Shown here piece after piece: positions 1-62,235 of a stretch of DNA of 64,000 nucleotides. How positions within the stretch are numbered: position 1 is the stretch's first letter; each line of letters starts with the position of its first letter. The translations under genes were made by a program, and so were the position numbers. A model generated the notes under the pieces. That model saw only the letters and a list, made by a program, of their open reading frames with translations, did not search any database and was not told the DNA's origin. Source of the DNA: Gordius sp. MW1 (taxonomy: Eukaryota > Nematomorpha > Gordioida > Gordea > Gordiidae); NCBI GenBank assembly GCA_964036665.1, contig OZ038532.1:15084537-15148536 (forward strand), given 5' to 3'.

Positions 1-2542
1 TGAACAAAAAAATTGAAAAAATTTTGAGGTCGAAAAAAATATTTTTTTTCATATTCTTTTAAAAGGGGGTTGAAAAAATCTTTAAAAGTTAGTAAATATT
101 CTTAGCATTATGTCCTTGATAGAATATCGATAAGAATTTTGCACGGGGAGTTTTAGATTGAGAGAAATTAAAATTTACGTGTTGCGTTTGGATTGTTTCA
201 ATATCGCTTTTTAAGCGTGTCTCCAGTTTTTGTGAAACAAGCTCATGCAATCGTGATTTAAAGTTAAAAATTTCTCAAAATTTTTTTATTTCGAAATTCA
301 CTCTGATATCGAAAACTTTCACGAGGGGTTTATGGTTAAAATAATTTCTGATAAATGATCAAAAAAAATATGGAAAAAATTTTGAATCGAAAAAATAATT
401 TTTTTTCATATTCTTTTGAAAGGGGGCTAAAATTTTTTTTGAAAGTTAGTAAATAATCTTAGCATTATATCCTTGTTAGAATCTCGATAAGACTTTTTGC
501 ACGGGGGGAAATTTTAGATTGAGAGAAATTAAAATTTACGTGTTATGTTTAGATTGTTTCAATATCGCTTTTTAAGCCTGTTTCTAGTTTTTGTGAAACA
601 AGCTCATGCGATCCTGATTTAAAATTAATAAATTTTGATGACTGATCAAAAAATATTTTTTTTTTGTAATTCACCTGTGATATCGAAAACTTTCATGAGG
701 GGTTTATGGTTGAACAAAAAAATTGAAAAAATTTTGAGGCCGAAAAAAATATTTTTTTTCATATTCTCTCAAAAGGGGGCTGAAAAAATCTTTGAAAGTT
801 AGTAAATATTCTTAGCATTATGTCCTTGTTAGAATCTCGATAAGAACTTTTGCACGGGGGGAAGTTTTAGAGTGAGAGAAATTAAAATTTTCGTGTTGCG
901 TTTAGATTGTTTCAATATCGCTTTTTAAGCGTGTCTCTAGTTTTTGCGAAACAAGCTCTATGCGATCGTGATTTAAGTTAAGAATTTTTGATGAAAAAAT
1001 ATTTTTTACGGAATTCACCTCTGATATAGAAAACTTTCATGGGGGCGATATGGTTGAACGAAAAAAGTGAAAAAATTTTGAGGTCGAAAAAATAATTATT
1101 TTTCATATTCTTTCGAAAGGGGGCTGAAAAAATCTTTAAAAGCTTGTAAATATTCTTAGCATTAATTATGTCCTTGTTAGAATCTCGATAAGAATTTTTG
1201 CACGAGGCGAAGTTTTAGATTGAGAGAAATTAAGATTTTCGTGTTGCGTTTAGATTATTTCAATATCGCTTTCTAAGCGTGTCTCTAGTTTTTGTGAAAC
1301 AAGCTCTATGCGATCGTGATTTAAAGTTACTAATTTTTTTGAAAAAATTTTTTTTACGGAATCACCTCTGATATCGAAAACTTTCATGGGGGCGATATGA
1401 TTGAACGAAAAAATTGAAAAAATTTTGAGGTCGAAACAAATATTATTTTTCATATTCTTTCGAAAGGAGGCTGAAAAAATCTTTAAAAGTCAGTAAATAT
1501 TCTTAGCATTATATCCTTGTTAGAATCTCGATAAGAATTTTTGCATGAGGCGAAGTTTTAGATTGAGAGAAATTAAAAATTTTATGTTGCGTTTAGATAG
1601 TTTCAATATCGCTTTCTAAGCGTGTCTCTAGTTTTTGTGAAACAAGCTCTATGCGATCGTGATTTAAAGTTAATAATTTTTGATGACTGATCAAAAAATA
1701 TTTTTTTTCGGAATTCACCTGTGATATCGTCGATAACTTTCATGAGGGGTTTTTTGTTGAACAAAAAGTTGAAAAATTTTGAATCGAAAAAAGTATTTTT
1801 TTTTATATTCTTTCGAAATTATGCTGAAAATCTTTGAAAGTTAGTAAATATTCTTAGCATTATGTCCTTGTTAGAATATCGATAAGAATTTTGCACGGGG
1901 GAAGTTTTAGATTGAGAGAAATTAAAATTTACGTGTTGTGTTTAGATTGTATCGCTTTTTAAGCGTGTCTCCAGTTTTTTGAAACAAGCTCATGCGATCA
2001 TGAAGTTAATAATTTTTGATGACTGAGCAAAAAATATTTTTTTTCGGAATTCACCTCTGATATCGATAACTTTCATGAGATGTTTATGGTTGAACAAAAA
2101 ATTAAAAAATTTTGAATCGAAAAAAGTATTTTTTTCATATTTTTTCGAAAGGGGGCTGAAAATCTTTGAAAGTTAGTAAATATTCTTAGCATTATGTCCT
2201 TGTTAGAATATCGATAAGAATTTTGCACGGGGGGAAGTTTTAGATTGGGAGAAATTAAAATTTACGTGTTGCGTTTAGATTGTTTCAATATCGCTTTAAG
2301 CGTGTCTCCAGTTTTTGTGAAACAAGCTCATGCGATCGTGATTTAAAGTTAAAAATTTCTGATAACGGATCAAAATTTTTTTTTTCGGAATTCACCTCTG
2401 ATATCGAAAATTCTCATGAGGGGTTTATGGTTAAACAAAAAAATTGAAAAAATTTTGAATCGAAAAAAGTATTTTTTTCACATTCTTTCGAAAGGGAGCT
2501 GAAAAAATCTTTGAAAGTTAGTAAACATTCTTAGCATTATGT

Positions 2543-2890
2543 CCTTGTTAGAATCTCGATAAGAATTTTTGCAGGGGGGAAGTTTTAGATTGCGAGAAAT
2601 TAAAATTTTTGCGTTGCGTTTATATTGTTTCAATATCGCTTTTTAATCGTGTCTCTAGGTTTTGTGAAACAAGCTCTATGCGATCGTGATTTATAGTTAA
2701 TAATTTTTGATGACTGATCAAAAAATATTTTTGTTTCGGAATTCACCTCTTATATCGATAACTTTCATGAGTGGTTTAAGGTTGAACAAAAAATTGAAAA
2801 ATTTTGAGGTCGAAAAAATCTTTTTTTCATATTTTTTCGAAAGGGGCTGAAAAAATCTTTGAAATTTAGTAAATATTCTTAGCATTATGT
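2543..2890 (+). repeat. Representative family A monomer
   Basis: A 348-bp unit from one 'ccttg' anchor to the next, usable as a reference monomer. It contains the GAATTC box, the A/T blocks and the 'cgaaagg' box described for the array. Its dyad arm is altered ('cgctttttaatcg'), showing that the hairpin is not invariant. Confidence 0.85.
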
Positions 2891-3329
2891 CCTTGTTAAA
2901 ATCTCGATAAGAATTTTTGCACGGGGGGAAGTTTTAGATTGAGAGAAATTAAAATTTTCGCGATGCGTTTAGATTCTTTCAATATCGCTTTTTAAGCGTG
3001 TCTCCAGTTTTTGTGAAACAAGCTCATGCGATCGTGATTTAAAGTTAATAATTTTTGATGAATGATCAAAATTTTTTGGAATTCACATCTGATATCGAAA
3101 ACTTTCATGAGGGGTTTATGGTTGACCAAAAAAAAATGAAAAAATTTGAGGTCGAAAAAAAATCTTTTTTTCATATTCTTTCGAAAGGGGGTTGAAAAAA
3201 TCTTTGAAAGTTAGTAAATATTCTTAGCATTATGTCCTTTTAGAATCTCGATAAGAATTTTTGCACGGGGGGAAGTTTTAGATTGCGAGAAATTAAAATT
3301 GTCGTGTTGCGTTTAGACTGTTTCAATAT

Positions 3330-3342
3330 GGCTTTTCAAGCC
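3330..3342. repeat. Family A dyad with both arms changed
   Basis: Most family A monomers have a small inverted repeat, cgctt-ttt-aagcg (for example 205-217). Here both arms differ together, ggctt-ttc-aagcc, and again at 3683-3695 (ggctt-ttt-aagcc) and one HOR later at ~7835 and ~8188. Pairing is preserved although the bases changed. A one-arm intermediate (cgctt...aagcc) is present at 566-578. Confidence 0.6.
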
Positions 3343-4509
3343 TGTCTCTAGTTTTTGTGAAACAAGCTCTATGCGATCGTGATTTAAAGTTAATAATTTT
3401 TGATGACTGATCAAAAAATTTTTTTTTTTCGGAATTCACCTCTGATATCGCAAACTTTCATGAGGGGTTTATGGTTGAACAAAAAAATTGAAAAAATTTT
3501 GAATCGAAAAAAGTATTTTTTTTCACATTCTTTCGAAAGGGAGCTGAAAAGATCTTTGAAAGTTAGAAAATATTCTTAGCATTATCTCCTTGTTAGAATC
3601 TCGATAAGAATTTTTGCACGAAAGGAAGTTTTAGATTGAGAGAAATTAAAATTTTCGTGTTCCATTTAGATTGTTTCAATATGGCTTTTTAAGCCTGTCT
3701 CTAGTTTTTGTGAAACAAGCTCTATGCGATCGTGATTTAAAGTTAATAATTTTTGATGACTGATCAAAAAATATTTTTGTTTCGGAATTCACCTCTGATA
3801 TCGCAAACTTTCATGAGGGGTTTATAGTTGAACAAAAAAATTGAAAAATGAATCGAAAAAAGTATTTTTTTCACATTCTTTCGAAAGGGAGCTAAAAAAT
3901 CTTTGAAAGTTGGTAAATATTCTTAGCATTACGTCCTTGATAGAATATCGATAAGAATTTTGGACGGGGGGACGTTTTAGATTGAGAGAAATTAAAATTT
4001 CCGCGATGCGTTTAGATTCTTTCAATATCGCTTTTTAAGCGTGTCTCCAGTTTTTGTGAAACAAGCTCATGCGATCGTGATTTAAAGTTAATAATTTTAG
4101 ATGACTGATCAAAAATTTTTTTTTTCGGAATTCACATCTGATATCGAAAACTTTCATGAGGGGTTTATGGTTGAAAAAAAAAAATTTTGAGGTCGAAAAA
4201 AATATTTTTTCCATATTCTTTCGAAAGGGGGCTGAAAAAATCTTTGAAAGTTAGTAAATATTCTTAGCATTATGTCCTTGTTAGAATCTCGATAAGAATT
4301 TTTGAACGAGGCGAAGTTTTAGATTGAGAGAAATTAAGATTTTCGTGTTGCGTTTAGATAGTTTCAATATCGCTTTATAAGCGTGTCTCTAGTTTTTGTG
4401 AAACTAGCTCGATCGTGATTTAAAGTTAATAATTTTTGATGACTGATCAAAAAATTTTTTTTACGGTATTTACCTCTGATATCGAAAACTTTTATGAGGG
4501 GTTTATGGT

Positions 4510-7500
4510 TGAACAAAAAATTGAAAAAATTTTGAGGTCGAAAAAAATATTTTTTTTCATATTCTTTCAAAAGGTTGCTGAAAAAATCTTTAAAAGTTAG
4601 TAAATATTCTTAGCATTATGTCCTTGATAGAATATCGATAAGAATTTTGCACGGGGAGTTTTAGATTGAGAGAAATTAAAATTTACGTGTTGCGTTTGGA
4701 TTGTTTCAATATCGCTTTTTAAGCGTGTCTCCAGTTTTTGTGAAACAAGCTCATGCAATCGTGATTTAAAGTTAAAAATTTCTCAAAATTTTTTTATTTC
4801 GAAATTCACCTCTGATATCGAAAACTTTCACGAGGGGTTTATGGTTAAAATAATTTCTGATAAATGATCAAAAAAAATATGGAAAAAATTTTGAATCGAA
4901 AAAATAATTTTTTTCATATTCTTTCGAAAGGGGGCTAAATTTTTTTTTGAAAGTTAGTAAATAATCTTAGCATTATGTCCTTGTTAGAATCTCGATAAGA
5001 ATTTTTGCACGGGGGGAAATTTTAGATTGAGAGAAATTAAAATTTACGTGTTATGTTTAGATTGTTTCAATATCGCTTTTTAAGCCTGTTTCTAGTTTTT
5101 GTGAAACAAGCTCATGCGATCGTGATTTAAAATTAATAAATTTTAATGACTGATCAAAAAATATTTTTTTTTGTAATTCACCTGTGATATCGAAAACTTT
5201 CATGGGTTTTATGGTTGAAATAAAAAATTGAAAAAATTTTGAGGCCGAAAAAAATATTTTTTTTCATATTCTTTCAAAAGGGGGCTGAAAAAATCTTTGA
5301 AAGTTAGTAAATATTCTTAGCATTATGTCCTTGTTAGAATCTCGATAAGAACTTTTGCACGGGGGGAAGTTTTAGAGTGAGAGAAATTAAAATTTTCGTC
5401 TTGCGTTTAGATTGTTTCAATATCGCTTTTTAAGCGTGTCTATAGTTTTTGCGAAACAAGCTCTATGCGATCGTGATTTAAGTTAAGAATTTTTGATGAA
5501 AAAATATTTTTTACGGAATTCACCTCTGATATAGAAAACTTTCATGGGGGCGATATGGTTGAACGAAAAAAGTGAAAAAATTTTGAGGTCGAAAAAATAA
5601 TTATTTTTCATATTCTTTCGAAAGGGGGCTGAAAAAATCTTTAAAAGCTTGTAAATATTCTTAGCATTAATTATGTCCTTGTTAGAATCTCGATAAGAAT
5701 TTTTGCACGAGGCGAAGTTTTAGATTGAGAGAAATTAAGATTTTCGTGTTGCGTTTAGATTGTTTCAATATCGCTTTCTAAGCGTGTCTCTAGTTTTTGT
5801 GAAACAAGCTCTATGCGATCGTGATTTAAAGTTACTAATTTTTTTGAAAAATTTTTTTTTACGGAATCACCTCTGATATCGAAAACTTTCATGGGGGCGA
5901 TATGATTGAACGAAAAAATTGAAAAAATTTTGAGGTCGAAAAAAATATTATTTTTCATATTCTTTCGAAAGGAGGCTGAAAAAATATTTAAAAGTCAGTA
6001 AATATTCTTAGCATTATATCCTTGTTAGAATCTCGATAAGAATTTTTGCATGAGGCGAAGTTTTAGATTGAGAGAAATTAAAAATTTTATGTTGCGTTTA
6101 GATAGTTTCAATATCGCTTTCTAAGCGTGTCTCTAGTTTTTGTGAAACAAGCTCTATGCGATCGTGATTTAAAGTTAATAATTTTTGATGACTGATCAAA
6201 AAATATTTTTTTTCGGAATTCACCTGTTATATCGTCGATAACTTTCATGAGGGGTTTATTGTTGAACAAAAAGTTGAAAAATTTTGAATCGAAAAAAGTA
6301 TTTTTTTTTATATTCTTTCGAAATTATGCTGAAAATCTTTGAAAGTTAGTAAATATTCTTAGCATTATGTCCTTGTTAGAATATCGATAAGAATTTTGCA
6401 CGGGGGAAGTTTTAGATTGAGAGAAATTAAAATTTACGTGTTGTGTTTAGATTGTATCGCTTTTTAAGCGTGTCTCCAGTTTTTTGAAACAAGCTCATGC
6501 GATCATGAAGTTAATAATTTTTGATGACTGAGCAAAAAATATTTTTTTTCGGAATTCACCTCTGATATCGATAACTTTCATGAGATGTTTATGGTTGAAC
6601 AAAAAATTAAAAAATTTTGAATCGAAAAAAGTATTTTTTTCATATTTTTTCGAAAGGGGGCTGAAAATCTTTGAAAGTTAGTAAATATTCTTAGCATTAT
6701 GTCCTTGTTAGAATATCGATAAGAATTTTGCACGGGGGGAAGTTTTAGATTGGGAGAAATTAAAATTTACGTGTTGCGTTTAGATTGTTTCAATATCGCT
6801 TTAAGCGTGTCTCCAGTTTTTGTGAAACAAGCTCATGCGATCGTGATTTAAAGTTAAAAATTTCTGATAACGGATCAAAATTTTTTTTTTCGGAATTCAC
6901 CTCTGATATCGAAAATTCTCATGAGGGGTTTATGGTTAAACAAAAAAATTGAAAAAATTTTGAATCGAAAAAAGTATTTTTTTCACATTCTTTCGAAAGG
7001 GAGCTGAAAAAATCTTTGAAAGTTAGTAAACATTCTTAGCATTATGTCCTTGTTAGAATCTCGATAAGAATTTTTGCAGGGGGGAAGTTTTAGATTGCGA
7101 GAAATTAAAATTTTTGCGTTGCGTTTATATTGTTTCAATATCGCTTTTTAATCGTGTCTCTAGGTTTTGTGAAACAAGCTCTATGCGATCGTGATTTATA
7201 GTTAATAATTTTTGATGACTGATCAAAAAATATTTTTGTTTCGGAATTCACCTCTTATATCGATAACTTTCATGAGTGGTTTAAGGTTGAACAAAAAATT
7301 GAAAAATTTTGAGGTCGAAAAAATCTTTTTTTCATATTTTTTCGAAAGGGGCTGAAAAAATCTTTGAAATTTAGTAAATATTCTTAGCATTATGTCCTTG
7401 TTAAAATCTCGATAAGAATTTTTGCACGGGGGGAAGTTTTAGATTGAGAGAAATTAAAATTTTCGCGATGCGTTTAGATTCTTTCAATATCGCTTTTTAA

Positions 7501-9014
7501 GCGTGTCTCCAGTTTTTGTGAAACAAGCTCATGCGATCGTGATTTAAAGTTAATAATTTTTGATGAATGATCAAAATTTTTTGGAATTCACATCTGATAT
7601 CGAAAACTTTCATGAGGGGTTTATGGTTGACCAAAAAAAAATGAAAAAATTTGAGGTCGAAAAAAAATCTTTTTTTCATATTCTTTCGAAAGGGGGTTGA
7701 AAAAATCTTTGAAAGTTAGTAAATATTCTTAGCATTATGTCCTTTTAGAATCTCGATAAGAATTTTTGCACGGGGGGAAGTTTTAGATTGCGAGAAATTA
7801 AAATTGTCGTGTTGCGTTTAGACTGTTTCAATATGGCTTTTCAAGCCTGTCTCTAGTTTTTGTGAAACAAGCTCTATGCGATCGTGATTTAAAGTTAATA
7901 ATTTTTGATGACTGATCAAAAAATTTTTTTTTTTCGGAATTCACCTCTGATATCGCAAACTTTCATGAGGGGTTTATGGTTGAACAAAAAAATTGAAAAA
8001 ATTTTGAATCGAAAAAAGTATTTTTTTTCACATTCTTTCGAAAGGGAGCTGAAAAGATCTTTGAAAGTTAGAAAATATTCTTAGCATTATCTCCTTGTTA
8101 GAATCTCGATAAGAATTTTTGCACGAAAGGAAGTTTTAGATTGAGAGAAATTAAAATTTTCGTGTTCCATTTAGATTGTTTCAATATGGCTTTTTAAGCC
8201 TGTCTCTAGTTTTTGTGAAACAAGCTCTATGCGATCGTGATTTAAAGTTAATAATTTTTGATGACTGATCAAAAAATATTTTTGTTTCGGAATTCACCTC
8301 TGATATCGCAAACTTTCATGAGGGGTTTATAGTTGAACAAAAAAATTGAAAAATGAATCGAAAAAAGTATTTTTTTCACATTCTTTCGAAAGGGAGCTAA
8401 AAAATCTTTGAAAGTTGGTAAATATTCTTAGCATTACGTCCTTGATAGAATATCGATAAGAATTTTGGACGGGGGGACGTTTTAGATTGAGAGAAATTAA
8501 AATTTCCGCGATGCGTTTAGATTCTTTCAATATCGCTTTTTAAGCGTGTCTCCAGTTTTTGTGAAACAAGCTCATGCGATCGTGATTTAAAGTTAATAAT
8601 TTTAGATGACTGATCAAAAAATTTTTTTTTCGGAATTCACATCTGATATCGAAAACTTTCATGAGGGGTTTATGGTTGAAAAAAAAAAATTTTGAGGTCG
8701 AAAAAAATATTTTTTCCATATTCTTTCGAAAGGGGGCTGAAAAAATCTTTGAAAGTTAGTAAATATTCTTAGCATTATGTCCTTGTTAGAATCTCGATAA
8801 GAATTTTTGAACGAGGCGAAGTTTTAGATTGAGAGAAATTAAGATTTTCGTGTTGCGTTTAGATAGTTTCAATATCGCTTTATAAGCGTGTCTCTAGTTT
8901 TTGTGAAACTAGCTCGATCGTGATTTAAAGTTAATAATTTTTGATGACTGATCAAAAAATTTTTTTTACGGTATTTACCTCTGATATCGAAAACTTTTAT
9001 GAGGGGTTTATGGT
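4510..9014 (+). repeat. Family A 13-monomer HOR, copy 2
   Basis: Collinear with copy 1 at an offset of 4,505-4,509 bp. The same monomer order and diagnostic variants reappear, for example the two 'ggctt...aagcc' monomers at ~7835 and ~8188. Line-by-line reading shows only scattered substitutions and homopolymer changes relative to copy 1, far fewer than between neighbouring monomers. That contrast defines a higher-order repeat. Confidence 0.93.
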
Positions 9015-11662
9015 TGAACAAAAAATTGAAAAAATTTTGAGGTCGAAAAAAATATTTTTTTTCATATTCTTTCAAAAGGGGGCTGAAAAAATCTTTAAAA
9101 GTTAGTAAATATTCTTAGCATTATGTCCTTGATAGAATATCGATAAGAATTTTGCACGGGGAGTTTTAGATTGAGAGAAATTAAAATTTACGTGTTGCGT
9201 TTGGATTGTTTCAATATCGCTTTTTAAGCGTGTCTCCAGTTTTTGTGAAACAAGCTCATGCAATCGTGATTTAAAGTTAAAAATTTCTCAAAATTTTTTT
9301 ATTTCGAAATTCACCTCTGATATCGAAAACTTTCACGAGGGGTTTATGGTTAAAATAATTTCTGATAAATGATCAAAAAAAATATGGAAAAAATTTTGAA
9401 TCGAAAAAATAATTTTTTTCATATTCTTTCGAAAGGGGGCTAAATTTTTTTTTGAAAGTTAGTAAATAATCTTAGCATTATGTCCTTGTTAGAATCTCGA
9501 TAAGAATTTTTGCACGGGGGGAAATTTTAGATTGAGAGAAATTAAAATTTACGTGTTATGTTTAGATTGTTTCAATATCGCTTTTTAAGCCTGTTTCTAG
9601 TTTTTGTGAAACAAGCTCATGCGATCGTGATTTAAAATTAATAAATTTTAATGACTGATCAAAAAATATTTTTTTTTTGTAATTCACCTGTGATATCGAA
9701 AACTTTCATGGGTTTTATGGTTGAAATAAAAAATTGAAAAAATTTTGAGGCCGAAAAAAATATTTTTTTTCATATTCTTTCAAAAGGGGGCTGAAAAAAT
9801 CTTTGAAAGTTAGTAAATATTCTTAGCATTATGTCCTTGTTAGAATCTCGATAAGAACTTTTGCACGGGGGGAAGTTTTAGAGTGAGAGAAATTAAAATT
9901 TTCGTCTTGCGTTTAGATTGTTTCAATATCGCTTTTTAAGCGTGTCTATAGTTTTTGCGAAACAAGCTCTATGCGATCGTGATTTAAGTTAAGAATTTTT
10001 GATGAAAAAATATTTTTTACGGAATTCACCTCTGATATAGAAAACTTTCATGGGGGCGATATGGTTGAACGAAAAAAGTGAAAAAATTTTGAGGTCGAAA
10101 AAATAATTATTTTTCATATTCTTTCGAAAGGGGGCTGAAAAAATCTTTAAAAGCTTGTAAATATTCTTAGCATTAATTATGTCCTTGTTAGAATCTCGAT
10201 AAGAATTTTTGCACGAGGCGAAGTTTTAGATTGAGAGAAATTAAGATTTTCGTGTTGCGTTTAGATTGTTTCAATATCGCTTTCTAAGCGTGTCTCTAGT
10301 TTTTGTGAAACAAGCTCTATGCGATCGTGATTTAAAGTTACTAATTTTTTTGAAAAATTTTTTTTTACGGAATCACCTCTGATATCGAAAACTTTCATGG
10401 GGGCGATATGATTGAACGAAAAAATTGAAAAAATTTTGAGGTCGAAAAAAATATTATTTTTCATATTCTTTCGAAAGGAGGCTGAAAAAATATTTAAAAG
10501 TCAGTAAATATTCTTAGCATTATATCCTTGTTAGAATCTCGATAAGAATTTTTGCATGAGGCGAAGTTTTAGATTGAGAGAAATTAAAAATTTTATGTTG
10601 CGTTTAGATAGTTTCAATATCGCTTTCTAAGCGTGTCTCTAGTTTTTGTGAAACAAGCTCTATGCGATCGTGATTTAAAGTTAATAATTTTTGATGACTG
10701 ATCAAAAAATATTTTTTTTCGGAATTCACCTGTTATATCGTCGATAACTTTCATGAGGGGTTTATTGTTGAACAAAAAGTTGAAAAATTTTGAATCGAAA
10801 AAAGTATTTTTTTTATATTCTTTCGAAATCAGGCTGAAAATCTTTGAAAGTTAGTAAATATTCTTAGCATTATGTCCTTGTTAGAATATCGATAAGAATT
10901 TTGCACGGGGGAAGTTTTAGATTGAGAGAAATTAAAATTTACGTGTTGTGTTAGATTGTATCGCTTTTTAAGCGTGTCTCCAGTTTTTGTGAAACAAGCT
11001 AATGCGATCGTGATTTAAAGTTAATAATTTTTGATGACTGAGCAAAAAATATTTTTTTTCGGAATTCACCTCTGATATCGATAACTTTCATGAGATGTTT
11101 ATGGTTGAACAAAAAATTAAAAAATTTTGAATCGAAAAAAGTATTTTTTTTCATATTCTTTCGAAAGGGGGCTGAAAAAATCTTTGAAAGTTAGTAAATA
11201 TTCTTAGCATTATGTCCTTGTTAGAATCTCGATAAGAATTTTTGCACGGGGGGAAGTTTTAGATTGAGAGAAATTAAAATTTTCGCGTTGCGTTTAGATT
11301 GTTTCAATATCGCTTTAAGCGTGTCTCCAGTTTTTGTGAAACAAGCTCATGCGATCGTGATTTAAAGTTAAAAATTTCTGATAACTGATCAAAATTTTTT
11401 TTTCGGAATTCACCTCTGATATCGAAAATTCTCATGAGGGGTTTATGGTTAAACAAAAAAATTGAAAAAATTTTGAATCGAAAAAAATATTTTTTTTCAT
11501 ATTCTTTCGAAAGGGGGCTGAAAAAATCTTTGAAAGTTAGTAAATATTCTTAGCATTATGTCCTTGTTAGAATCTCGATAAGAATTTTTGCACGGGGGGA
11601 AGTTTTAGATTGAGAGAAATTAAAATTTTCGCGTTGCGTTTAGATTGTTTCAATATCGCTTT
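9015..11662 (+). repeat. Family A HOR, partial and diverging copy 3
   Basis: Begins 4,505 bp after copy 2 and matches it closely to about 10,825. From there to the array edge the monomer order is kept but the sequence departs from copies 1 and 2. The monomer that is contracted in copies 1 and 2 (around 'gcgatcatgaagttaa') retains the full 'gcgatcgtgatttaaagtt' here, so its anchor interval is 340 bp (10,876 to 11,216) instead of 332. The last two monomers before 11,662 resemble the family consensus and each other. Confidence 0.85.
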
Positions 11663-11672
11663 ATCGTTTTAT
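11655..11672. other. A/B satellite junction
   Basis: Family A runs up to '...caatatcgcttt' (to about 11,662), then family B starts with 'cgttttattgttgcgatt' from about 11,665. The switch is not at the homologous position. A has already passed the part equivalent to B's 'ttgcgattag', so about 30 bp is represented twice in diverged form. The A break lies inside its cgctt-ttt-aagcg dyad. Confidence 0.75.
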
Positions 11673-12206
11673 TGTTGCGATTAGTTGGTTGTATCGCAGG
11701 GTGAGTGCTTAATTTTTAAAAACTGTTCTATGCGATCATGATTTTAAAGAAATACTTTTATGATTTTGATAAATTTTTATTTTTTATCATATAAATCACG
11801 TCTGAAAACGACAACTTTCATCGGTGTTGAAAAAAATGTGAAAAGTTTTAAGGTAAAAAATTTATTTTTTGTTATTTTATGTGAAAGAGCTTGAAAAAAT
11901 ATATAGAAGTAGCCAATTTGAGAATATCCTCGATTGACTCTCGAAAAGAACTATTAAGCAGCGAAAACTCTCATTTCGACAAAAGACAACGTTTAATTGT
12001 AGCCATTAGATTGTTGTATCTCATCGTGAGTGCTTAATTTTTAAAACATGCTCTATGCAATCATGATTTCAAAGAAATAGTTTTCTGCTCCTGATAAATT
12101 TTTACTTATTATCATGGAAATCACGTCTAAAAACGACAACTTTCACCGGATGAATACGGTTGAAACAAAAAAGTCAAAATTTTCTAAGGAAAAAAATATT
12201 TTTTTG
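11663..12206 (+). repeat. Irregular family B monomers at the left edge
   Basis: About one and a half B monomers that precede the ordered 12-mer. They carry private variants such as 'cgcagggtgagtg', 'ctattaagcagcg' and a shortened 'agtagccaatttgagaatatcctc'. They lie between the A/B junction and the first HOR copy and fit a poorly homogenised array edge. Confidence 0.75.
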
Positions 12207-20389: not shown

Positions 20390-20894
20390 TTATTTTATGT
20401 GAAAGAGCTTGAAAAAATATATAAAAGTAAGTTAATTTGACAATCCTATTATCCTCGATTGACTCCCGAAAAGAACTTTTAAGCAGCGGAAACTCTCATT
20501 TTGACAAAAGACAACGTTTTATTGTTGCGATTAGTTGGTTAAACTGCTATATGCGATCATGATTTTAAAGAAATAGTTTTATGATTCTGATAAATTTTTA
20601 CTTTTTATCATGGAAATCACGTCTGAAAACGACAACTTTCACCGGATGAATACGGTTGAAACAAAAAAATGTCAAAATTTTCTAAGGAAAAAAATATTTT
20701 TTTGTTATTTTATTTGAAAGAGCTTGAAAAAATATATAGAAGTAAGCCAATTTGAGATTCCTTTTATCCTCGATTGACTCCCGAAAAGTACTTTTAAGCA
20801 GCGAAAACTCTTATTTTGACAAAAGACAACGTTTTATTGTTGCGATTAGTTGGTTGTATCGTAACGTGAGTGCTTAATTTTTGAAAACTGCTCC
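20390..20894 (+). repeat. Mosaic family B segment with truncated monomer
   Basis: Short transition between the 12-mer and 20-register HORs. At 20,540/20,541 the sequence jumps from 'attagttggtt' to 'aaactgctatatgcg', removing the 29 bp normally between them, including the 'gtatcgc' half of the dyad and the 'gtgagtgctt' box. The following monomers resemble parts of the 20-register HOR but not in its order. Confidence 0.75.
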
Positions 20895-52156: not shown

Positions 52157-52423
52157 TTTTCAAAAATGCACTATGCGATCATGATTTCAAAGTAATAGTT
52201 TTCTGATTCTGATAAATTTTTACTTTTTATCATCGAAACCACGTCTGAAAACGACAACTTTCCTCGGATGCATACGGTTCAAAAAAAAATATGTGAAAAA
52301 TTTTGAGGTAAAAATATTTATTTTTTTCGATTCTATGTGAAAGAGCGTAAAAAAATATATAAAAGTAAGCCAATTTGAGAATCCTATTACCCTCGATTGA
52401 CTTCCGCAAAGAGGTTTTAAGCT

Positions 52424-52431
52424 GCGAGAAC
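52424..52431 (+). repeat. hAT target-site duplication, left copy
   Basis: The 8-bp sequence GCGAGAAC immediately precedes the transposon and is repeated exactly at 53,544-53,551. Uninterrupted C monomers read 'gctgcgagaactatc', so the empty site is known. Eight-base duplications are characteristic of the hAT superfamily. Confidence 0.95.
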
Positions 52432-52443
52432 TAGAGCCCTGCA
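52432..52443 (+). repeat. hAT left terminal inverted repeat
   Basis: TAGAGCCCTGCA, the perfect reverse complement of 53,532-53,543. It directly abuts the target-site duplication. Confidence 0.93.
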
Positions 52444-52471
52444 CGGGTGACCCGTAACCCGACCCGACCCG

Positions 52472-52506
52472 ACCCGACCCGACCCGAGCGTCGGGTCGGG
52501 TCGGGT
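52472..52506. repeat. GC-rich perfect hairpin near the left end
   Basis: A 16-nt arm at 52,472-52,487 (acccgacccgacccga) is the perfect reverse complement of 52,491-52,506, separated by a 3-nt loop (gcg). Further ACCCG units extend upstream with imperfect pairing. It stands out against the surrounding AT-rich satellite. Confidence 0.85.
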
Positions 52507-52640
52507 TCGGGTTGAAAATTTAAAAACGCTTTCGGGTCGGGTCGGGTTCGGGTTGAAAAATTGAAAACGCTTTCGGGTCGGGTCGGGTTCGGGTTAAAAA
52601 ATTGAAAACGCTTTCGGGTCGGGTCGGATTCGGGTTGAAA
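52491..52640 (+). repeat. Left subterminal repeats (~41 bp) with G-tract motifs
   Basis: Four repeats. The 'acgcttt' mark between units is at 52,526, 52,567 and 52,608 (41-bp spacing). Each repeat carries G3 runs in the pattern gggtcgggtcgggttcggg (first at 52,493-52,511), which fits the G3N1-7 quadruplex consensus. The last copy is altered to 'gggtcggattcggg'. In hAT elements, subterminal repeats are commonly transposase-binding sites; that role is inferred here. Confidence 0.82.
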
Positions 52641-52663
52641 AAAAGTGACTTTGCAGGGCTCTG

Positions 52664-52798
52664 ATGCAGCCTGAAGAGCTTAATGAGCTCTATGATGAGA
52701 TTAGGTTAATAATGAATGATAAAAGCTATGAAAGTCTAAAGGAAAACACAGTGGTTGAAAGTGAGCCACCAAAGGAAATTAATCAGCTAGGTATTTAA
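52664..52798 (+). pseudogene. Possible upstream transposase remnant
   Basis: A 44-codon open frame (MQPEELNELY...NQLGI, then TAA) begins just after the internal terminus. It is in a different frame (-1) from the hAT dimerisation fragment that follows. It is acidic and could be the stretch that preceded the dimerisation domain in the parent transposase, separated by a frameshift, but it has no motif I can name. The ATG may be accidental. Confidence 0.3.
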
Positions 52799-52809
52799 CA
52801 TATAAATTC

Positions 52810-53169
52810 ATGTTAACGTATATTTTAGAAAAGAATGCTAACATGTCTTTTATGGATTTTTCTGGTTGGGAGGAATGTGCGGATGAAAATGTCCAAGAAA
52901 AAGATGAACTTGATGAATATATTCATTATAAACTTACAAAAAAGGATGAAGCATACGACTCATTAGAATGGTGGAGGATATATTCTTATAAATATCCTGT
53001 TTTAGGGTTATTGGCTCGTAAATTTCTGGCCATACCTGCATCCTCTGCGTCCAGCGAGAGATCTTTTTCTACAGCTGGACGAATTTTAGAAGATAGGAGG
53101 TCGAGTTTACGGCCTGAAATTGTAGACGCTATTATATTTATACATAATTATAATAATTCTCTCAAATAA
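52810..53169 (+). pseudogene. hAT transposase C-terminal dimerisation-domain fragment
   Basis: 119 codons; the frame is open without a start codon from 52,783. Visible motifs: acidic 'DELDEY' (residues 32-37), 'LEWWR' (52-56), 'YPVLGLLARKFLAIPASSAS' (62-81), 'SERSFSTAG' (82-90), 'DRRSSLRP' (95-102) and a closing hydrophobic helix (103-112). This order is the signature of the hAT C-terminal dimerisation domain (Dimer_Tnp_hAT, hATC). Full hAT transposases are usually several hundred residues; the BED-type DNA-binding finger and most of the catalytic core are missing. The 3' part is intact and in frame, so a truncated protein is possible, but it would not be expected to catalyse transposition. 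The ATG at 52,810 is the first in frame and its use is unproven. Confidence 0.85.
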
Positions 53170-53170
53170 A
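53165..53170 (+). promoter_or_regulatory. Candidate polyadenylation signal
   Basis: AATAAA overlaps the TAA stop of the transposase fragment and lies in an AT-rich stretch before the right subterminal repeats. It is a plausible relic of the parental transposase 3' end, but in AT-rich sequence the hexamer can arise by chance. Confidence 0.35.
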
Positions 53171-53250
53171 TTTATTATTCAAATTCTTGGCGTCAAATTG
53201 TTTCTGAAAGCTGCCTATTTATTTTGGCAAATCAATTTAAAATATTTAAA

Positions 53251-53531
53251 ACGCTTTCCTATCTGGGCGTTTTTGGGTTGAAAATTTTTTAAACGCTTTC
53301 GGGTCGGGTTCGGGTTGAAATTTTAAAAACGCTTTCGGGTCGGGTTCGGGTTGAAACATTGAAAACGCTTTCGGGTCGGGTCGGGTTCGGGTTGAAAATT
53401 TAAAAACGCTTTCGGGTCGGGTCGGGTTCAGGTTGAAAAATTGAAAACGCTTTCGGGTCGGGTCGGGTTCGGGTTGAAAAATTGAAAACGCTTTCGGGTC
53501 GGGTCGGGTTCGGGTTGAAAAAAAGTGACTT
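53251..53531 (+). repeat. Right subterminal repeats (~41 bp) with G-tract motifs
   Basis: Seven repeats with 'acgcttt' at 53251, 53293, 53329, 53365, 53406, 53447 and 53488 (spacings 42, 36, 36, 41, 41, 41). The 36-bp units have lost one 'gggtc'. The innermost is degenerate ('cctatctgggcgtttttggg'). They are in the same orientation as the left-end repeats, not inverted, although the terminal repeats themselves are inverted. The last is followed by 'aaaaaaagtgac' and the right terminus. Confidence 0.85.
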
Positions 53532-53543
53532 TGCAGGGCTCTA
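53532..53543 (-). repeat. hAT right terminal inverted repeat
   Basis: TGCAGGGCTCTA, the perfect reverse complement of 52,432-52,443. Confidence 0.93.
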
Positions 53544-53551
53544 GCGAGAAC
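53544..53551 (+). repeat. hAT target-site duplication, right copy
   Basis: GCGAGAAC, identical to 52,424-52,431. The C monomer resumes directly with 'tatcattttgac'. Confidence 0.95.
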
Positions 53552-53989: not shown

Positions 53990-56900
53990 GCGATCATGAT
54001 TTCAAAGTAATAGTTTTCTGATTCTGATAAATTTTTACTTTTTATCATCGAAACCACGTCTGAAAACGACAACTTTCCTCGGATGCATACGGTTCAAAAA
54101 AAAATATGTGAAAAATTTTGAGGTAAAAATATTTATTTTTTTCGATTCTATGTGAAAGAGCGTAAAAAAATATATAAAAGTAAGCCAATTTGAGAATCCT
54201 ATTACCCTCGATTGACTTCCGCAAAGAGGTTTTAAGCTGCGAGAACTATCATTTTGACAAAAGACAACGTTTTATTGTTGCGATTAGTTTGTTGTATCGC
54301 AACGTGAGTGCTTAATTTTTCAAAAATGCACTATGCGATCATGATTTCAAAGTAATAGTTTTCTGATTCTGATAAATTTTTACTTTTTATCATCGAAACC
54401 ACGTCTGAAAACGACAACTTTCATCGGATGCATACGGTTCAAAAAAAAATATGTGAAAAATTTTGAGGTAAAAATATTTATTTTTTTCGATTCTATGTGA
54501 AAGAGCATGAAAAAATATATAAAAGTAAGCCAATTTGAGAATCCTATTACCCTCGATTGACTTCCGCAAAGAGGTTTTAAGCTGCAAGAACTATCATTTT
54601 GACAAAAGACAACGTTTTATTGTTGCGATTATTTTGTTGTATCGCAACGTGAGTGCTTAATTTTTCAAAAATACAATATTATATCATGATTTTAAAGTAA
54701 TTGTTTTCTAATTCTGATAAATTTTTACTTTTTATCATGGAAACCACGTCTGAAAACGACAACTTTCATCGGATGCATACGGTTGAAAGAAAAATATGTG
54801 AAAAATTTTGAGGTAAAAATATTTATTTTTTCGATTTTATGTGAAAGAGCATGAAAAAATATATAAAAGTAAGCCAATTTGAGAATCCTATTATCCTCGA
54901 TTTACTTCCGAAAAGAGGTTTTAAGCTGCGAGAACTATCATTTTGACAAAAGACAACGTTTTATTGTTGCGATTAGTTTGTTGTATCGCAACGTGAGTGC
55001 TTAATTTTTGAAAATGGCTCTATGATCATGATTTCAAAGTAATAGTTTTCAGATTCTGATAAATTTTTACTTGGGATCATAGAAACCACGTCTGAAAACG
55101 ACAACTTTCATCGGATGCATACGGTTGAAAGAAAAATATGTGAAAAATTTTGAGGTAAAAATATTTATTTTTTTCGATTCTATGTGAAAGAGCATGAAAT
55201 AATATATAAAACTAAGTCAATTTGAGAATCCTATTATCCTCGATTTACTTCCGAAAAGAGGTTTTAAGCTGCGAGAACTATCATTTTGACAAAAGACAAC
55301 GTTTTATTGTTGCGATTAGTTTGTTGTATCGCAACGTGAGTGCTTAATTTTTGAAAATGGCTCTATGCGATCATGATTTCAAAGTAATAGTTTTCAGATT
55401 CTGATAAATTTTTACTTGGGATCATAGAAACCACGTCTGAAAACGACATCTTTCATCGGATGAATACGGTTCAAAGAAAAATATGTGAAAAATTTTTAGG
55501 TAAAAATATTTATTTTTTTCGATTCAATGTGAAAGAGCGTAAAAAAATATATAAAAGTAAGCCAATTTGAGAATCCTATTACCCTCGATTGACTTCCGCA
55601 AAGAGGTTTTAAGCTGCGAGAACTATCATTTTGACAAAAGACAACGTTTTATTGTTGCGATTAGATTATCGCAACGTGAGTGCTTAATTTTTCAAAAATG
55701 CACTATGCGATCATGATTTCAAAGTAATAGTTTTCTGATTCTGATAAATTTTTACTTTTCATCATGGAAACCACGTCTGAAATCGACAACTTTCATCGGA
55801 TGCATACGGTTGAAAGAAAAATATGTGAAAAATTTTGAGGTAAAAATAATTATTTTTTTCGATTCTATGTGAAAGAGCATGAAAAAATATATAAAAGTAA
55901 GCCAATTTGAGAATCCTATTATCCTCGATTCACTTCCGAAAATAGGTTTTAAGAAGCGAGAACTATTAATTTTGACATAAGACAACGTTTTATTGTTGCG
56001 ATTAGTTTGTTGTATCGCAACGTGAGTGCTTAATTTTTAAAAATGGCTCTATGATCATGATTTCAAAGTAATAGTTTTCAGATTCTGATAAATTTTTACT
56101 TGCGATCATAGAAACCACGTCTGAAAACGACAACTTTCATAGGATGCATACGGTTGAAAGAAAAATATGTGAAAAATTTTGGTGTAAAAATATTTATTTT
56201 TTTCGATTCTATGTGAAAGAGCGTAAAAAAATATATAAAAGTAAGCCAATTTGAGAATCCTATTACCCTCGATTGACTTCCGCAAAGAGGTTTTAAGCTG
56301 CGAGAACTATCATTTTGACAAAAGACAACGTTTTATTGTTGCGATTAGTTTGTTGTATCGCAACGTGAGTGCTTAATTTTTCAAAAATGCACTATGCGAT
56401 CATGATTTCAAAGTAATAGTTTTCTAATTCTGATAAATTTTTACTTTTTATCATCGAAACCACGTCTGAAAACGACAACTTTCATCGGATGCATACGGTT
56501 CAAAGAAAAATATGTGAAAAATTTTGAGGTAAAAATATTTATTTTTTTCGATTCTATGTGAAAGAGCGTAAAAAAATATATAAAAGTAAGCCAATTTAAC
56601 AATTCTATTACCCTCGATTGACTTCCGCAAAGAGGTTTTAAGCTGCGGGAACTATCATTTTGACAAAAGACAACGTTTTATTGTTGGGATTAGTTTGTTG
56701 TATCGCAACGTGAGTGCTTAATTTTCAAAAATGCACTATGCGATCATGATTTCAAAGTAATAGTTTTCTGATTCTGATAAATTTTTACTTTTTATCATCG
56801 AAACCACGTCTGAAAACGACAACTTTCATCGGATGCATACGGTTCAAAAAAAAATATGTGAAAAATTTTGAGGTAAAAATATTTATTTTTTTCGATTCTA

Positions 56901-58459
56901 TGTGAAAGAGCATGAAAAAATATATAAAAGTAAGCCAATTTGAGAATCCTATTACCCTCGATTGACTTCCGCAAAGAGGTTTTAAGCTGCAAGAACTATC
57001 ATTTTGACAAAAGACAACGTTTTGTTGTTGCGATTAGTTTGTTGTATCGCAACGTGAGTGCTTAATTTTTCAAAAATACAATATGCGATCATGATTTTAA
57101 AGTAATAGTTTTCTGATTCTGATAAATTTTTACTTTTTATCATGGAAACCACGTCTGAAAACGACAACTTTCATCGGATGCATACGGTTCAAAAAAAAAT
57201 ATGTGAAAAATTTTGAGGTAAAAATATTTATTTTTTTCGATTCTATGTGAAAGAGCATGAAAAAATATATAAAAGTAAGCCAATTTAAGAATCCTATTAC
57301 CCTCGATTTACTTCCGAAAAGAGGTTTTAAGCTGCGAGAACTATCATTTTGACAAAAGACAACGTTTTATTGTTGCGATTAGTTTGTTGTATCGCAACGT
57401 GAGTGCTTAATTTTTGAAAATGGCTCTATGATCATAATTTCAAAGTAATAGTTTTCAGATTCTGATAAATTTTTACTTGGGATCATAGAAACCACGTCTG
57501 AAAACCACAACTTTCATCGGATGCATAGGGTTGAAAGAAAAATATGTAAAAAATTTTGAGGTAAAAATATTTATTTTTTTCGATTCTATGTGAAAGAGCG
57601 TGAAAAAATATATAAAAGTAAGCCAATTTGAGAATCCTATTATCCTCGATTTACTTCCGAAAAGAGGTTTTAAGCTGCGAGAACTATCATTTTGACAAAA
57701 GACAACGTTTTATTGCTGCGATTAGTTTGTTGTATCGCAACGTGAGTGCTTAATTTTTGAAAATGGCTCTATGATCATGATTTCAAAGTAATAGTTTTCA
57801 GATTCTGATAAATTTTTACTTGGGATCATAGAAACCACGTCTGAAAACGACAACTTTCATCGGATGCATACGGTTGAAAGAAAAATATGTGAAAAATTTA
57901 GAGGTAAAAATATTTATTTTTTTCGATTCTATGTGAAAGAGCATGAAAAAATATATAAAAGTAAGCCAATTTGAGAATCCTATTATCCTCGATTTACTTC
58001 CGAAAAGAGGTTTTAAGCTGCGAGAACTATCATTTTGACAAAAGACAACGTTCTATTGTTGCGATTAGTTTGTTGTATCGCAACGTGAGTGCTTAATTTT
58101 TGAAAATGTCTCTATGCGATCATGATTTCAAAGTAATAGTTTTCAGATTCTGATAAATTTTTACTTGGGATCATAGAAACCACGTCTGAAAACGACAACT
58201 TTCATCGGATGAATACGGTTCAAAGAAAAATATGTGAAAAATTTTTAGGTAAAAATATTTATTTTTTTCGATTCTATGTGAAAGAGCGTAAAAAAATATA
58301 TAAAAGTAAGCCAATTTGAGAATCCTATTACCCTCGATTGACTTCCGCAAAGAGGTTTTAAGCTGCGAGAACTATCATTTTGACAAAAGACAACGTTTTA
58401 TTGTTGCGATTAGTTTGTTGTATCGCAACGTGAGTGCTTAATTTTTCAAAAATGCACTA
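53990..58459 (+). repeat. Family C long repeat (~4.47 kb, 13 monomers), copy 1
   Basis: Diagnostic variants recur ~4,470 bp later: 'tttcctcgg' (54,074 and 58,544), 'tacaatattatatcatg' (54,672 and 59,142) and the 'ttaagaagcgag' monomer (55,952 and 60,425). It overlaps partly with the 7-mer order but includes additional monomers. One monomer here has a 5-bp loss at ~55,665 inside the dyad loop. Boundaries are approximate. Confidence 0.72.
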
Positions 58460-61400
58460 TGCGATCATGATTTCAAAGAATAGTTTTCTGATTCTGATAA
58501 ATTTTTACTTTTTATCATCGAAACCACGTCTGAAAACGACAACTTTCCTCGGATGCATACGGTTCAAAAAAAAATATGTGAAAAATTTTGAGGTAAAAAT
58601 ATTTATTTTTTTCGATTCTATGTGAAAGAGCGTAAAAAAATATATAAAAGTAAGCCAATTTGAGAATTTTATTACCCTCGATTGACTTCCGCAAAGAGGT
58701 TTTAAGCTGCGAGAACTATCATTTTGACAAAAGACAACGTTTTATTGTTGCGATTAGTTTGTTGTATCGCAACGTGAGTGCTTAATTTTTCAAAAATGCA
58801 CTATGCGATCATGATTTCAAAGTAATAGTTTTCTGATTCTGATAAATTTTTACTTTTTATCATCGAAACCACGTCTGAAAACGACAACTTTCACCGGATG
58901 CATACGGTTCAAAAAAAAATATGTGAAAAATTTTGAGGTAAAAATATTTATTTTTTTCGATTCTATGTGAAAGAGCATGAAAAAATATATAAAAGTAAGC
59001 CAATTTGAGAATCCTATTACCCTCGATTGACTTCCGCAAAGAGATTTTAAGCTGAGAGAACTATCATTTTGACAAAAGACAACGTTTTATTGTTGCGATT
59101 ATTTTGTTGTATCGCAACGTGAGTGCTTATTTTTTCAAAAATACAATATTATATCATGATTTTAAAGTAATAGTTTTCTGATTCTGATAAATTTTTACTT
59201 TTTATCATGGAAACCACGTCTGAAAACGACAACTTTCATCGGATGCATACGGTTGAAAGAAAAATATGTGAAAAATTTTGAGGTAAAAATATTTATTTTT
59301 TTCGATTTTATGTGAAAGAGCATGAAAAAATATATAAAAGTAAGCCAATTTGAGAATCCTATTATCCTCGATTTACTTCCGAAAAGAGGTTTTAAGCTGC
59401 GAGAACTATCATTTTGACAAAAGACAACGTTTTATTGTTGCGATTTGTTTGTTGTATCGCAAAGTGAGTGCTTAATTTTTGAAAATGGCTCTATGATCAT
59501 GATTTCAAAGTAATAGTTTTCAGATTCTGATAAATTTTTACTTGGGATCATAGAAACCACGTCTGAAAACGACAACTTTCATCGGATGCATACGGTTGAA
59601 AGAAAAATATGTGAAAAATTTTGAGGTAAAAATATTTATTTTTTTCGATTCTATGTGAAAGAGCATGAAAAAATATATAAAAGTAAGCCAATTTGAGAAT
59701 CCTATTATCCTCGATTTACTTCCGAAAAGAGGTTTTAAGCTGCGAGAACTATCATTTTGACAAAAGACAACGTTTTATTGTTGCGATTAGTTTGTTGTAT
59801 CGCAACGTGAGTGCTTAATTTTTGAAAATGGCTCTATGCGATCATGATTTCAAAGTAATAGTTTTCAGATTCTGATAAATTTTTACTTGGGATCATAGAA
59901 ACCACGTCTGAAAACGACATCTTTCATCGGATGAATACGGTTCAAAGAAAAATATGTGAAAAATTTTTAGGTAAAAATATTTATTTTTTTCGATTCAATG
60001 TGAAAGAGCGTAAAAAAATATATAAAAGTAAGCCAATTTGAGAATCCTATTACCCTCGATTGACCGCAAAGAGGTTTTAAGCTGCGAGAACTATCATTTT
60101 GACAAAAGACAACGTTTTATTGTTCCGATTAGATTGTTGTATCGCAACGTGTGTGCTTAATTTTTCAAAAATGCACTATGCGATCATGATTTCAAAGTAA
60201 TAGTTTTCTGATTCTGATAAATTTTTACTTTTCATCATGGAAACCACGTCTGAAATCGACAACTTTCATCGGATGCATACGGTTGAAAGAAAAATATGTG
60301 AAAAATTTTGAGGTAAAAATAATTATTTTTTTCGATTCTATGTGAAAGAGCATGGAAAAATATATAAAAGTAAGCCAATTTGAGAATCCTATTATCCTCG
60401 ATTCACTTCCGAAAATAGGTTTTAAGAAGCGAGAACTATTAATTTTGACATAAGACAACGTTTTATTGTTGCGATTAGTTTGTTGTATCGCAACGTGAGT
60501 GCTTAATTTTTAAAAATGGCTCTATGATCATGATTTCAAAGTAATAGTTTTCAGATTCTGATAAATTTTTACTTGCGATCATAGAAACCACGTCTGAAAA
60601 CGACAACTTTCATCGGATGCATACGGTTGAAAGAAAAATATGTGAAAAATTTTGGTGTAAAAATATTTATTTTTTTCGATTCTATGTGAAAGAGCGTAAA
60701 AAAATATATAAAAGTAAGCCAATTTGAGAATCCTATTACCCTCGATTGACTTCCGCAAAGAGGTTTTAAGCTGCGAGAACTATCATTTTGACAAAAGACA
60801 ACGTTTTATTGTTGGGATTAGTTTGTTGTATCGCAACGTGAGTGCTTAATTTTCAAAAATGCACTATGCGATCATGATTTCAAAGTAATAGTTTTCTGAT
60901 TCTGATAAATTTTTACTTTTTATCATCGAAACCACGTCTGAAAACGACAACTTTCATCGGATGCATACGGTTCAAAAAAAAATATGTGAAAAATTTTGAG
61001 GTAAAAATATTTATTTTTTTAGATTCTATGTGAAAGAGCATAAAAAAATATATAAAAGTAAGCCAATTTGAGAATCCTATTACCCTCGATTGACTTCCGC
61101 AAAGAGGTTTTAAGCTGCAAGAACTATCATTTTGACAAAAGACAACGTTTTGTTGTTGCGATTAGTTTGTTGTATCGCAACGTGAGTGCTTAATTTTTCA
61201 AAAATACAATATGCGATCATGATTTTAAAGTAATAGTTTTCTGATTCTGATAAATTTTTACTTTTTATCATGGAAACCACGTCTGAAAACGACAACTTTC
61301 ATCGGATGCATACGGTTCAAAAAAAAATATGTGAAAAATTTTGAGGTAAACATATTTATTTTTTTTGATTCTATGTGAAAGAGCATGAAAAAATATATAA

Positions 61401-62235
61401 AAGTAAGCCAATTTAAGAATCCTATTACCCTCGATTTACTTCCGAAAAGAGGTTTTAAGCTGCGAGAACTATCATTTTGACAAAAGACAACGTTTTATTG
61501 TTGCGATTAGTTTGTTGTATCGCAACGTGAGTGCTTAATTTTTGAAAATGGCTCTATGATCATAATTTCAAAGTAATAGTTTTCAGATTCTGATAAATTT
61601 TTACTTGGAATCATAGAAACCACGTCTGAAAACCACAACTTTCATCGGATGCATAGGGTTGAAAGAAAAATATGTGAAAAATTTTGAGCTAAAAATATTT
61701 ATTTTTTTCGATTCTATATGAAAGAGCGTGAAAAAATATATAAAAGTAAGCCAATTTGAGAATCCTATTATCCTCGATTTACTTCCGAAAAGAGGTTTTA
61801 AGCTGCGAGAACTATCATTTTGACAAAAGACAACGTTTTATTGCTGCGATTAGTTTGTTGTATCGCAACGTGAGTGCTTAATTTTTAAAAATGTCTCTAT
61901 GCGATCATGATTTCAAAGTAATAGTTTTCAGATTCTGATAAATTTTTACTTGGGATCATAGAAACCACGTCTGAAAACGACAACTTTCATCGGATGAATA
62001 CGGTTCAAAGAAAAATATGTGAAAAATTTTTAGGTAAAAATATTTATTTTTTTCGATTCTATGTGAAAGAGCGTAAAAAAATATATAAAAGTAAGCCAAT
62101 TTGAGAATCCTATTACCCTCGATTGACTTCCGCAAAGAGGTTTTAAGCTGCGAGAACTATCATTTTGACAAAAGACAACGTTTTATTGTTGCGATTAGAT
62201 TGTTGTATCGCAACGTGAGTGCTTAATTTTTCAAA
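58460..62235 (+). repeat. Family C long repeat, copy 2, two monomers shorter
   Basis: Collinear with copy 1, but the offset steps from ~4,473 to 4,128 and then to 3,785 bp. Two separate losses of about one monomer explain this. The first falls near 60,770, where the 'ggtgtaaaaat' monomer is followed directly by the 'gttgggatt' monomer. The second falls between ~61,841 and ~61,891. Small private deletions include 'gattgaccgcaaag' at ~60,059. Confidence 0.72.

Follow-up and report, generated by a model that had tools for sequence, protein, structure and literature searches.

The window analysed here is a stretch of 64,000 nucleotides of Gordius sp. MW1 (C6:15,084,537-15,148,536), located on the 23-Mb contig C6 of an assembly that totals 211.8 Mb in 12 contigs. 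It was found to consist of non-coding satellite DNA with monomers of about 345 bp, together with one hAT-type transposon remnant, and within it four blocks of 7 to 20 mutually diverged monomers, drawn from the monomer families A, B and C, were repeated nearly unchanged as higher-order repeats (HORs). The GC content was 28-31% in 2-kb steps, except for one step of 37% which holds an insertion. Tandem Repeats Finder reported two arrays, one with a 348-bp unit at 1-11,662 and one with a 345-bp unit at 20,541-64,000, and the gap between them (11,662-20,541) was occupied by repeat of the same kind, as judged from the sequence and the monomer comparison. The families, their junctions and the repeated blocks were arranged as follows.

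1-11,662, plus strand: A-family array, monomer of about 348 bp (Tandem Repeats Finder, lag tables and copy alignments)
960-11,348, plus strand: core of the A 13-mer HOR, 4,505-bp period (lag tables and copy alignments)
11,651-11,690, plus strand: A/B junction, an A-type monomer stopping mid-monomer and B-type sequence running from about 11,663
12,397-20,239, plus strand: B 12-mer HOR, 4,092-bp period, two copies, each with a 421-bp monomer variant
20,895-41,171, plus strand: B 20-mer HOR, 6,872-bp period, three copies, the third less than full length
25,281-25,424, plus strand: C-like partial monomer of 144 bp in the B 20-mer (96.5% to the C consensus, 86.2% to B)
41,848-42,190, plus strand: B/C switch, in register, through a single intermediate monomer (0.939 to its closest B monomer, 0.899 to its closest C monomer)
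45,289-52,431, plus strand: C 7-mer HOR, 2,409-bp period, about three copies, the last broken by the transposon
54,333-61,207, plus strand: one pair of partly matching C blocks (54,333-56,737 and 58,803-61,207), claimed in an earlier note as a 13-mer of 4,470 bp

The flanks were examined for 100 kb on either side of the window (264 kb in all). A total of 751 monomers were cut from this sequence, 2 with insertions were dropped, and 749 were compared with gaps scored as differences. Besides B, the segments were labelled A- (reversed A), A+ (forward A), C1+C2 (C in the window) and C3 (C to its right); contigs are always called contigs below. The consensus monomers of A and B were 69% identical in the same register, their score of 119.5 compared with a best of 37.5 among 40 dinucleotide shuffles; on the reverse strand the score was at the shuffle level. 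Between B and C the consensus identity was 89%. Given these same-register identities and an A-B score far above the shuffles, the three families belong to one homologous satellite superfamily, in which B and C are the closer pair. The identity of non-partner monomers was 0.894 in A-, 0.851 in A+, 0.861 in B, 0.942 in C1+C2 and 0.937 in C3, and the divergence among monomers within a block was about 6% in C and 14-15% in A and B. The idea that the 345-bp monomer arose as a dimer was unsupported, with half-versus-half scores (10.5-16.5) near the 20-shuffle means (9.7-13.3). No inverted copies were found within the window, which had zero 20-mers in common with its reverse complement.

The earlier note had claimed five periods, of 4,505, 4,092, 6,872, 2,409 and 4,470 bp, each being a block of diverged monomers repeated nearly unchanged. 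Sharp lags were obtained at four of these five offsets, and the exact 24-mer spacings peaked at 4505, 4092, 6872 and 2409. The strength of each lag was evaluated by shuffling the monomer order 2000 times, on intervals which were picked after the lags had been seen. Compared to a permuted same-lag identity of 0.853, the partner identity of A at lag 13 (960-11,348) was 0.994, a value reached by 0/2000 permutations at any lag; left of 960 the partners were at 0.96-0.98 as far as 245 and at 0.76-0.97 further left. For B, the partner identity was 0.996 against 0.873 at lag 12 (12,397-20,239) and 0.9995 against 0.868 at lag 20 (20,895-40,836), again with 0/2000 at any lag in both cases, and for C at lag 7 (45,289-52,172) it was 0.997 against 0.947, with 1/2000 at any lag. 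The partner was also closer than the best neighbouring monomer for the majority of partners, in 22/27 comparisons for the A 13-mer, 12/13 for the B 12-mer, 39/45 for the B 20-mer and 13/21 for the C 7-mer. In these four blocks the copies differed by 0.03-1.1%, against about 6% (C) or 14-15% (A, B) among the monomers, and were thus far more alike than the monomers of which they are built.

The fifth period was weak, with a good match over about half of its length. The partner identity of C at lag 13 over 54,333-62,239, the best interval, was 0.970 against a permuted 0.941 and was matched at any lag in 43/2000 permutations; over 54,333-66,024 it was 0.954 and was matched in 689/2000, with lag 19 about equally high. 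The partner exceeded the best neighbour in 6/21 comparisons, and no 24-mer spacing was dominant in this last C segment (345, 4128, 2408, 4473 and others). The best half (54,333-56,737 vs 58,803-61,207) contained 28 substitutions in 2,398 positions (1.17%), and the whole contained 124 in 4,456 (2.78%), so the full 13-mer did not consist of copies far more alike than monomers. The C monomer types from 45,289 read DEBCFGH DEBCFGH DEBCF(.), then the transposon, then CIG.DEBCF.GH..IG.DECF. Because the string DEBCF.GH..IG.DECF repeats the 7-mer DEBCFGH in decayed form, the 4,470-bp period is best read as the spacing of two decayed, altered 7-mer copies and not as an HOR array itself. Position 62,235, given in the earlier note as an end, was no boundary, and the C array continued past it. 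In segment C3 (281 monomers) no leading lag was found, the best being 0.944 against a background median of 0.942. An array-wide HOR of the human type, with one unit over hundreds of kb, was likewise not found in the 64 kb, where each block had 2-3 copies.

The copy alignments gave the relative ages of the blocks. In the A 13-mer, copies 1 and 2 differed by 9 substitutions in 4,504 positions, copies 2 and 3 by 9/1,368 and copies 1 and 3 by 15/1,368, with 6/1,378 between copies 1 and 2 on that stretch. The two B 12-mer copies differed by 13/3,751 in the core and by 23/4,082 with the decayed last monomer. For the B 20-mer the values were 2/6,872 (copies 1-2), 13/6,531 (2-3) and 12/6,504 (1-3), and for the C 7-mer 5/2,407, 18/2,321 and 19/2,310 in the same order. 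Because copies 1 and 2 of the B 20-mer were 0.03% apart while those of the A 13-mer, B 12-mer and C 7-mer were 0.2-1.1% apart with overlapping ranges, it was clear that at least two ages could be distinguished, not five, and the B 20-mer was clearly the youngest block. The divergence of successive copies was graded, with the left pair closer in all three of the three-copy HORs, clearly in the B 20-mer and C 7-mer and weakly in A (6 vs 9 substitutions), although little can be concluded from three cases.

The composition of the blocks was analyzed by clustering of monomer types. The B 12-mer read ABCDEFGHIBH plus one unclustered monomer, and the 20-mer read JKLKMNKOPBEFQRISHIEF. A single common HOR for all of B was rejected, as the two compositions differ. 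The types B, E, F, H and I were common to both, and the 12-mer and 20-mer thus draw on one ancestral array. The pair EF was present twice in the 20-mer, 2,818 bp apart, and therefore an older internal duplication lies inside it. Identical copies of the 144-bp C-like piece occurred at 32,153 and 39,024, one per 20-mer copy, so that C-type sequence must have joined the B block before the block was copied.

The third copy of the C 7-mer was interrupted by the transposon remnant, for which two features were recorded.

52,432-53,543, plus strand: hAT-type transposon remnant, 1,112 bp, with perfect 12-bp terminal inverted repeats TAGAGCCCTGCA and an 8-bp target duplication GCGAGAAC
52,783-53,166, plus strand: open reading frame (ORF) remnant with the hAT C-terminal dimerisation domain PF05699 (Pfam E=2e-23, 82.4 bits, cut-off 21.4)

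Short terminal inverted repeats with an 8-bp target duplication are the marks of a hAT element, and 41-bp tandem repeats were found inside. The end motif GACTTTGCAGGGCTCTA had 189 exact matches in the assembly. A complete hAT transposase was not found in 52,432-53,543; since the longest overlapping ORFs were of 128-129 codons and the C-terminal dimerisation domain was the only one present, the element is a non-autonomous hAT remnant. Among the 7-mer copies only the third was interrupted, and therefore either the 7-mer duplications predate the insertion or the copy with the insertion has not been duplicated since.

Markers of each block were then searched in the assembly; they had been selected as rare within the 264 kb, and the real test was the remaining genome. 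With up to 2 mismatches, the B 20-mer marker (right junction of the C-like 144-bp piece) had 3/3 of its matches in the three copies here, and the B 12-mer marker had 2/2 in the window. The A 13-mer marker had 3 exact matches, all in the window, plus 9 two-mismatch relatives on contig C4. Differently, the C 7-mer marker, a variant of that unit, had 40 exact matches on six contigs, with 2/40 in the HOR. The B 20-mer, B 12-mer and (by exact matches) A 13-mer were thus confined to one locus, and the C 7-mer marker was not. Because the two B markers and the exact A marker match nowhere else in the assembly, the blocks of A and B originated here. Repeated, independent local amplification had been proposed in the earlier note; the private A and B markers bore out amplification that was repeated and local, but not its independence, given the types common to the B 12-mer and 20-mer, and not the count of five. 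That interpretation is right in kind and overstated in number and independence.

Additionally, block duplication was not restricted to these HORs. Fixed-lag runs of at least 4 near-identical monomers numbered 40 in the reversed A, with lags from 4 to 78, the longest being a 6-mer in about four copies, and 27 in C, including 7 in the window, 3 over its right end and 17 beyond. Block duplication is common in this region, and the window is a sample of such events.

Taken together, these results show recent tandem duplication, over several rounds and with the monomer register kept, of blocks comprising 7 to 20 diverged monomers, and we consider it very likely that misaligned recombination was the cause. 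The lags were whole numbers of monomers and the copies aligned with few small indels; these whole-monomer lags and the register, together with the graded divergence and the locus-private junctions, fit repeated misaligned exchange or out-of-register repair. The process would be misaligned homologous recombination within the array, through unequal sister-chromatid exchange, out-of-register break-induced replication or gene conversion. The B 20-mer and 12-mer were assembled partly from the same older monomer types, and copies may later decay by mutation or get replaced, which would keep the HORs at 2-3 copies without spreading over the array. Such recombination mechanisms are discussed in PMC8122249, and for human arrays simple unequal crossover is argued to be insufficient in PMC11062924.

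Several observations weigh against this reading or narrow it. The sequence of 55,022-57,430, to the right of the transposon, differed from the 7-mer unit by 8/2,404 (0.33%), compared with 0.78% between 7-mer copies 2 and 3; therefore gene conversion or a later exchange also acted, and a simple stepwise history is incomplete. One haplotype fits exchange, gene conversion and break-induced replication alike. The C 7-mer marker is common to several chromosomes, so C variants circulate widely and are not local. Finally, B is still connected to the wider family: a B-type 52-mer was matched exactly at 28 sites, of which 21 lie in this B block and 7 on contig C1, and at 10,118 sites with at most 1 mismatch.

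Rolling-circle amplification, in which a block is cut out as a circle, replicated and put back in the form of tandem units, was considered unlikely. It would suit blocks that are private to the locus by the B 20-mer and 12-mer markers, the near-identity of B 20-mer copies 1 and 2 (2/6,872) and the weak grading among the A copies (6 vs 9 substitutions). However, one burst would usually give more than 2-3 copies and predicts equal divergence among them, and grading was clear in 2/3 of the three-copy HORs; stepwise duplication fits this grading better than one burst. Very unlikely is an assembly artefact, that is, near-identical copies of 6.9 kb (or 4.5 kb, or 2.4 kb) arising as false tandem duplications, for example from both haplotypes joined in series. 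The B 20-mer copies were 0.03-0.20% apart, within reach of heterozygosity, but the copies number three and not two, the blocks come in four different sizes, all of them in register, and the 200 kb of flank contain duplicated blocks of many other lengths. Least probable of all is that a block with a protein-binding box was kept and spread as a better centromere, in the style of human alpha satellite: the block structure, the private A and B markers and the location in a multi-megabase zone would agree with such selection, but there were 2-3 copies only, the array was not dominated by any of them, segment C3 had no leading lag, and the CENP-B-box pattern had no match within two substitutions in 3/4 consensus monomers, A+ having one two-substitution match.

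Alongside duplication by misaligned recombination, the distribution of long runs raised a further idea. Monomers in runs of at least 10 near-identical monomers made up 80/89 in B, 28/40 in A+, 86/282 in A-, 20/57 in C1+C2 and 26/281 in C3. The meeting zone of the diverged families, with A on the left and C on the right, might thus be a cradle of new HORs, where the more diverged A+ and B monomers are re-amplified in blocks of unusual length, a suggestion we hold to be doubtful. When runs of 4 monomers upwards were counted, the contrast was much smaller (80/89, 28/40, 188/282, 31/57 and 126/281, respectively), which together with the single locus counts against it. If it were true on other chromosomes, family boundaries rather than the cores of arrays would be the birthplace of new centromere variants, opposite to the layering found in humans.

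The window lies within a much larger satellite zone. The left flank was family A in reverse orientation; the orientation of A switched 2.6 kb left of the window start, at C6:15,081,962 (window position about -2,574), where more than 97 kb of minus-strand A gives way to forward A inside a single monomer and with a shift of register. The right flank was family C over 100 kb apart from one non-satellite insertion of about 1.5 kb (C6:15,210,068-15,211,575; L029:1,532-3,039), whose ends are CTCGT/CGAGA-rich and whose middle is AT-rich. Spot samples of contig C6 from 13.0 to 15.7 Mb contained satellite in 18/18, with the orientation changing along the zone (C minus, A plus, A minus, the window, C plus, C minus), and those at 3, 6, 9, 11, 16.5, 17.5 and 19 Mb in 0/7, with none at the contig start either. 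On contig C5, samples at 12.55-12.95 Mb were family A in 4/4. A 46-mer of the B/C family had 54,570 assembly matches with up to 3 mismatches, which would correspond to about 19 Mb, or 9% of the assembly, assuming one per 345 bp. Among the matches listed, or as rare variants, family members were present on all eight chromosome-sized contigs (21-37 Mb), a statement of presence and not of extent, and on contig C1 the matches listed fell at 11.2-12.05 and at 17.79 Mb. The window is a slice of a multi-megabase satellite zone that is probably centromeric or pericentromeric. Telomere repeats of CCCTAA opened 6/11 nuclear contigs. Contigs C4 (1-600, L059) and C9 (1-600, L064) started with GC-rich GTCCGTTGTCCG-like short repeats on opposite strands, not with CCCTAA.

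The remaining contig of the assembly, C12, was the mitochondrial genome (14,798 bp), whose gene names were assigned by eye from translations. In its COX1, TGA is Trp, ATA is Met and AGA is Ser, that is, the invertebrate code. Codon 10 of COX1 (L035:4079-5608) was AGG, at a position occupied by lysine in the two best solved COX1 chains, and AGG is possibly read as Lys in this gene, judging from a single site. A short tandem repeat was located directly ahead of cox1 (L035:3,690-4,010), repeated pieces were found within or beside the nad5 and nad6 frames (L076), and the gene order was unusual, with nad1 and nad2 on the minus strand and the other recognised protein genes on the plus strand. The centipede Strigamia maritima was rejected as the source, since its nad4L, nad4, nad5 and nad3 are minus-strand genes (PMC4368715) whereas here they are on plus, and since its short chromosomes are described as telocentric; the rejection covers S. 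maritima itself and not its relatives. Polydesmid millipedes, in which a single strand carries every gene (PMC8948135), did not fit either, and the gene order and CCCTAA telomeres do not suggest a beetle. COX1 had 24 matches in the assembly, of which 23 were in nuclear contigs (C1, C3, C4, C5 and C8; 20/23 above the cut-off). The match at C8:2829490-2830827 covered profile positions 1-435 with seven in-frame TGA, equal to the mitochondrial gene. These nuclear matches are probably nuclear copies of mitochondrial DNA.

Locally generated satellite HORs are a known phenomenon, of which the window is a new example, and the known picture of satellite turnover is unchanged. Its value is that an animal satellite displays, next to one another, several block-duplication rounds that carry private junction markers, which makes it a clean test case for the start of an HOR before its spread and for whether satellite-family boundaries are starting places. 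No description of HORs of this satellite was found in literature searches that covered listings, which is a weak negative. In the CEN178 centromeres of Arabidopsis, whose arrays are homogeneous and hold some inserted transposons, many small, recent local block duplications of varied size occur. The window resembles CEN178 in its recent local block duplications of varied size; it differs in belonging to an animal, in a monomer about twice as long, in a hAT-type remnant instead of an LTR (long terminal repeat) retrotransposon, and in two strongly diverged families which meet at one boundary. Compared to human HORs, in which monomers are about 70% identical and adjacent HOR blocks up to 97-100% (PMC8122249), the architecture was the same in that the copies of a block of diverged monomers resemble each other much more than the monomers do. 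However, human HOR units can run for megabases (PMC11062924), whereas here there were 2-3 copies, several block sizes per 64 kb, a monomer of about 345 bp and no array-dominating HOR. The TCAST major satellite of Tribolium castaneum, a 361-bp monomer at 17% of the genome and (peri)centromeric (PMC10218199), is by its description similar in monomer size and abundance. The leaf beetle Chrysolina carnifex carries pericentromeric dimer and trimer HORs (PMC8122249) and is likewise an invertebrate whose satellite has higher-order forms; unlike its 2-3 monomers per unit, the units of the window contained 7-20.

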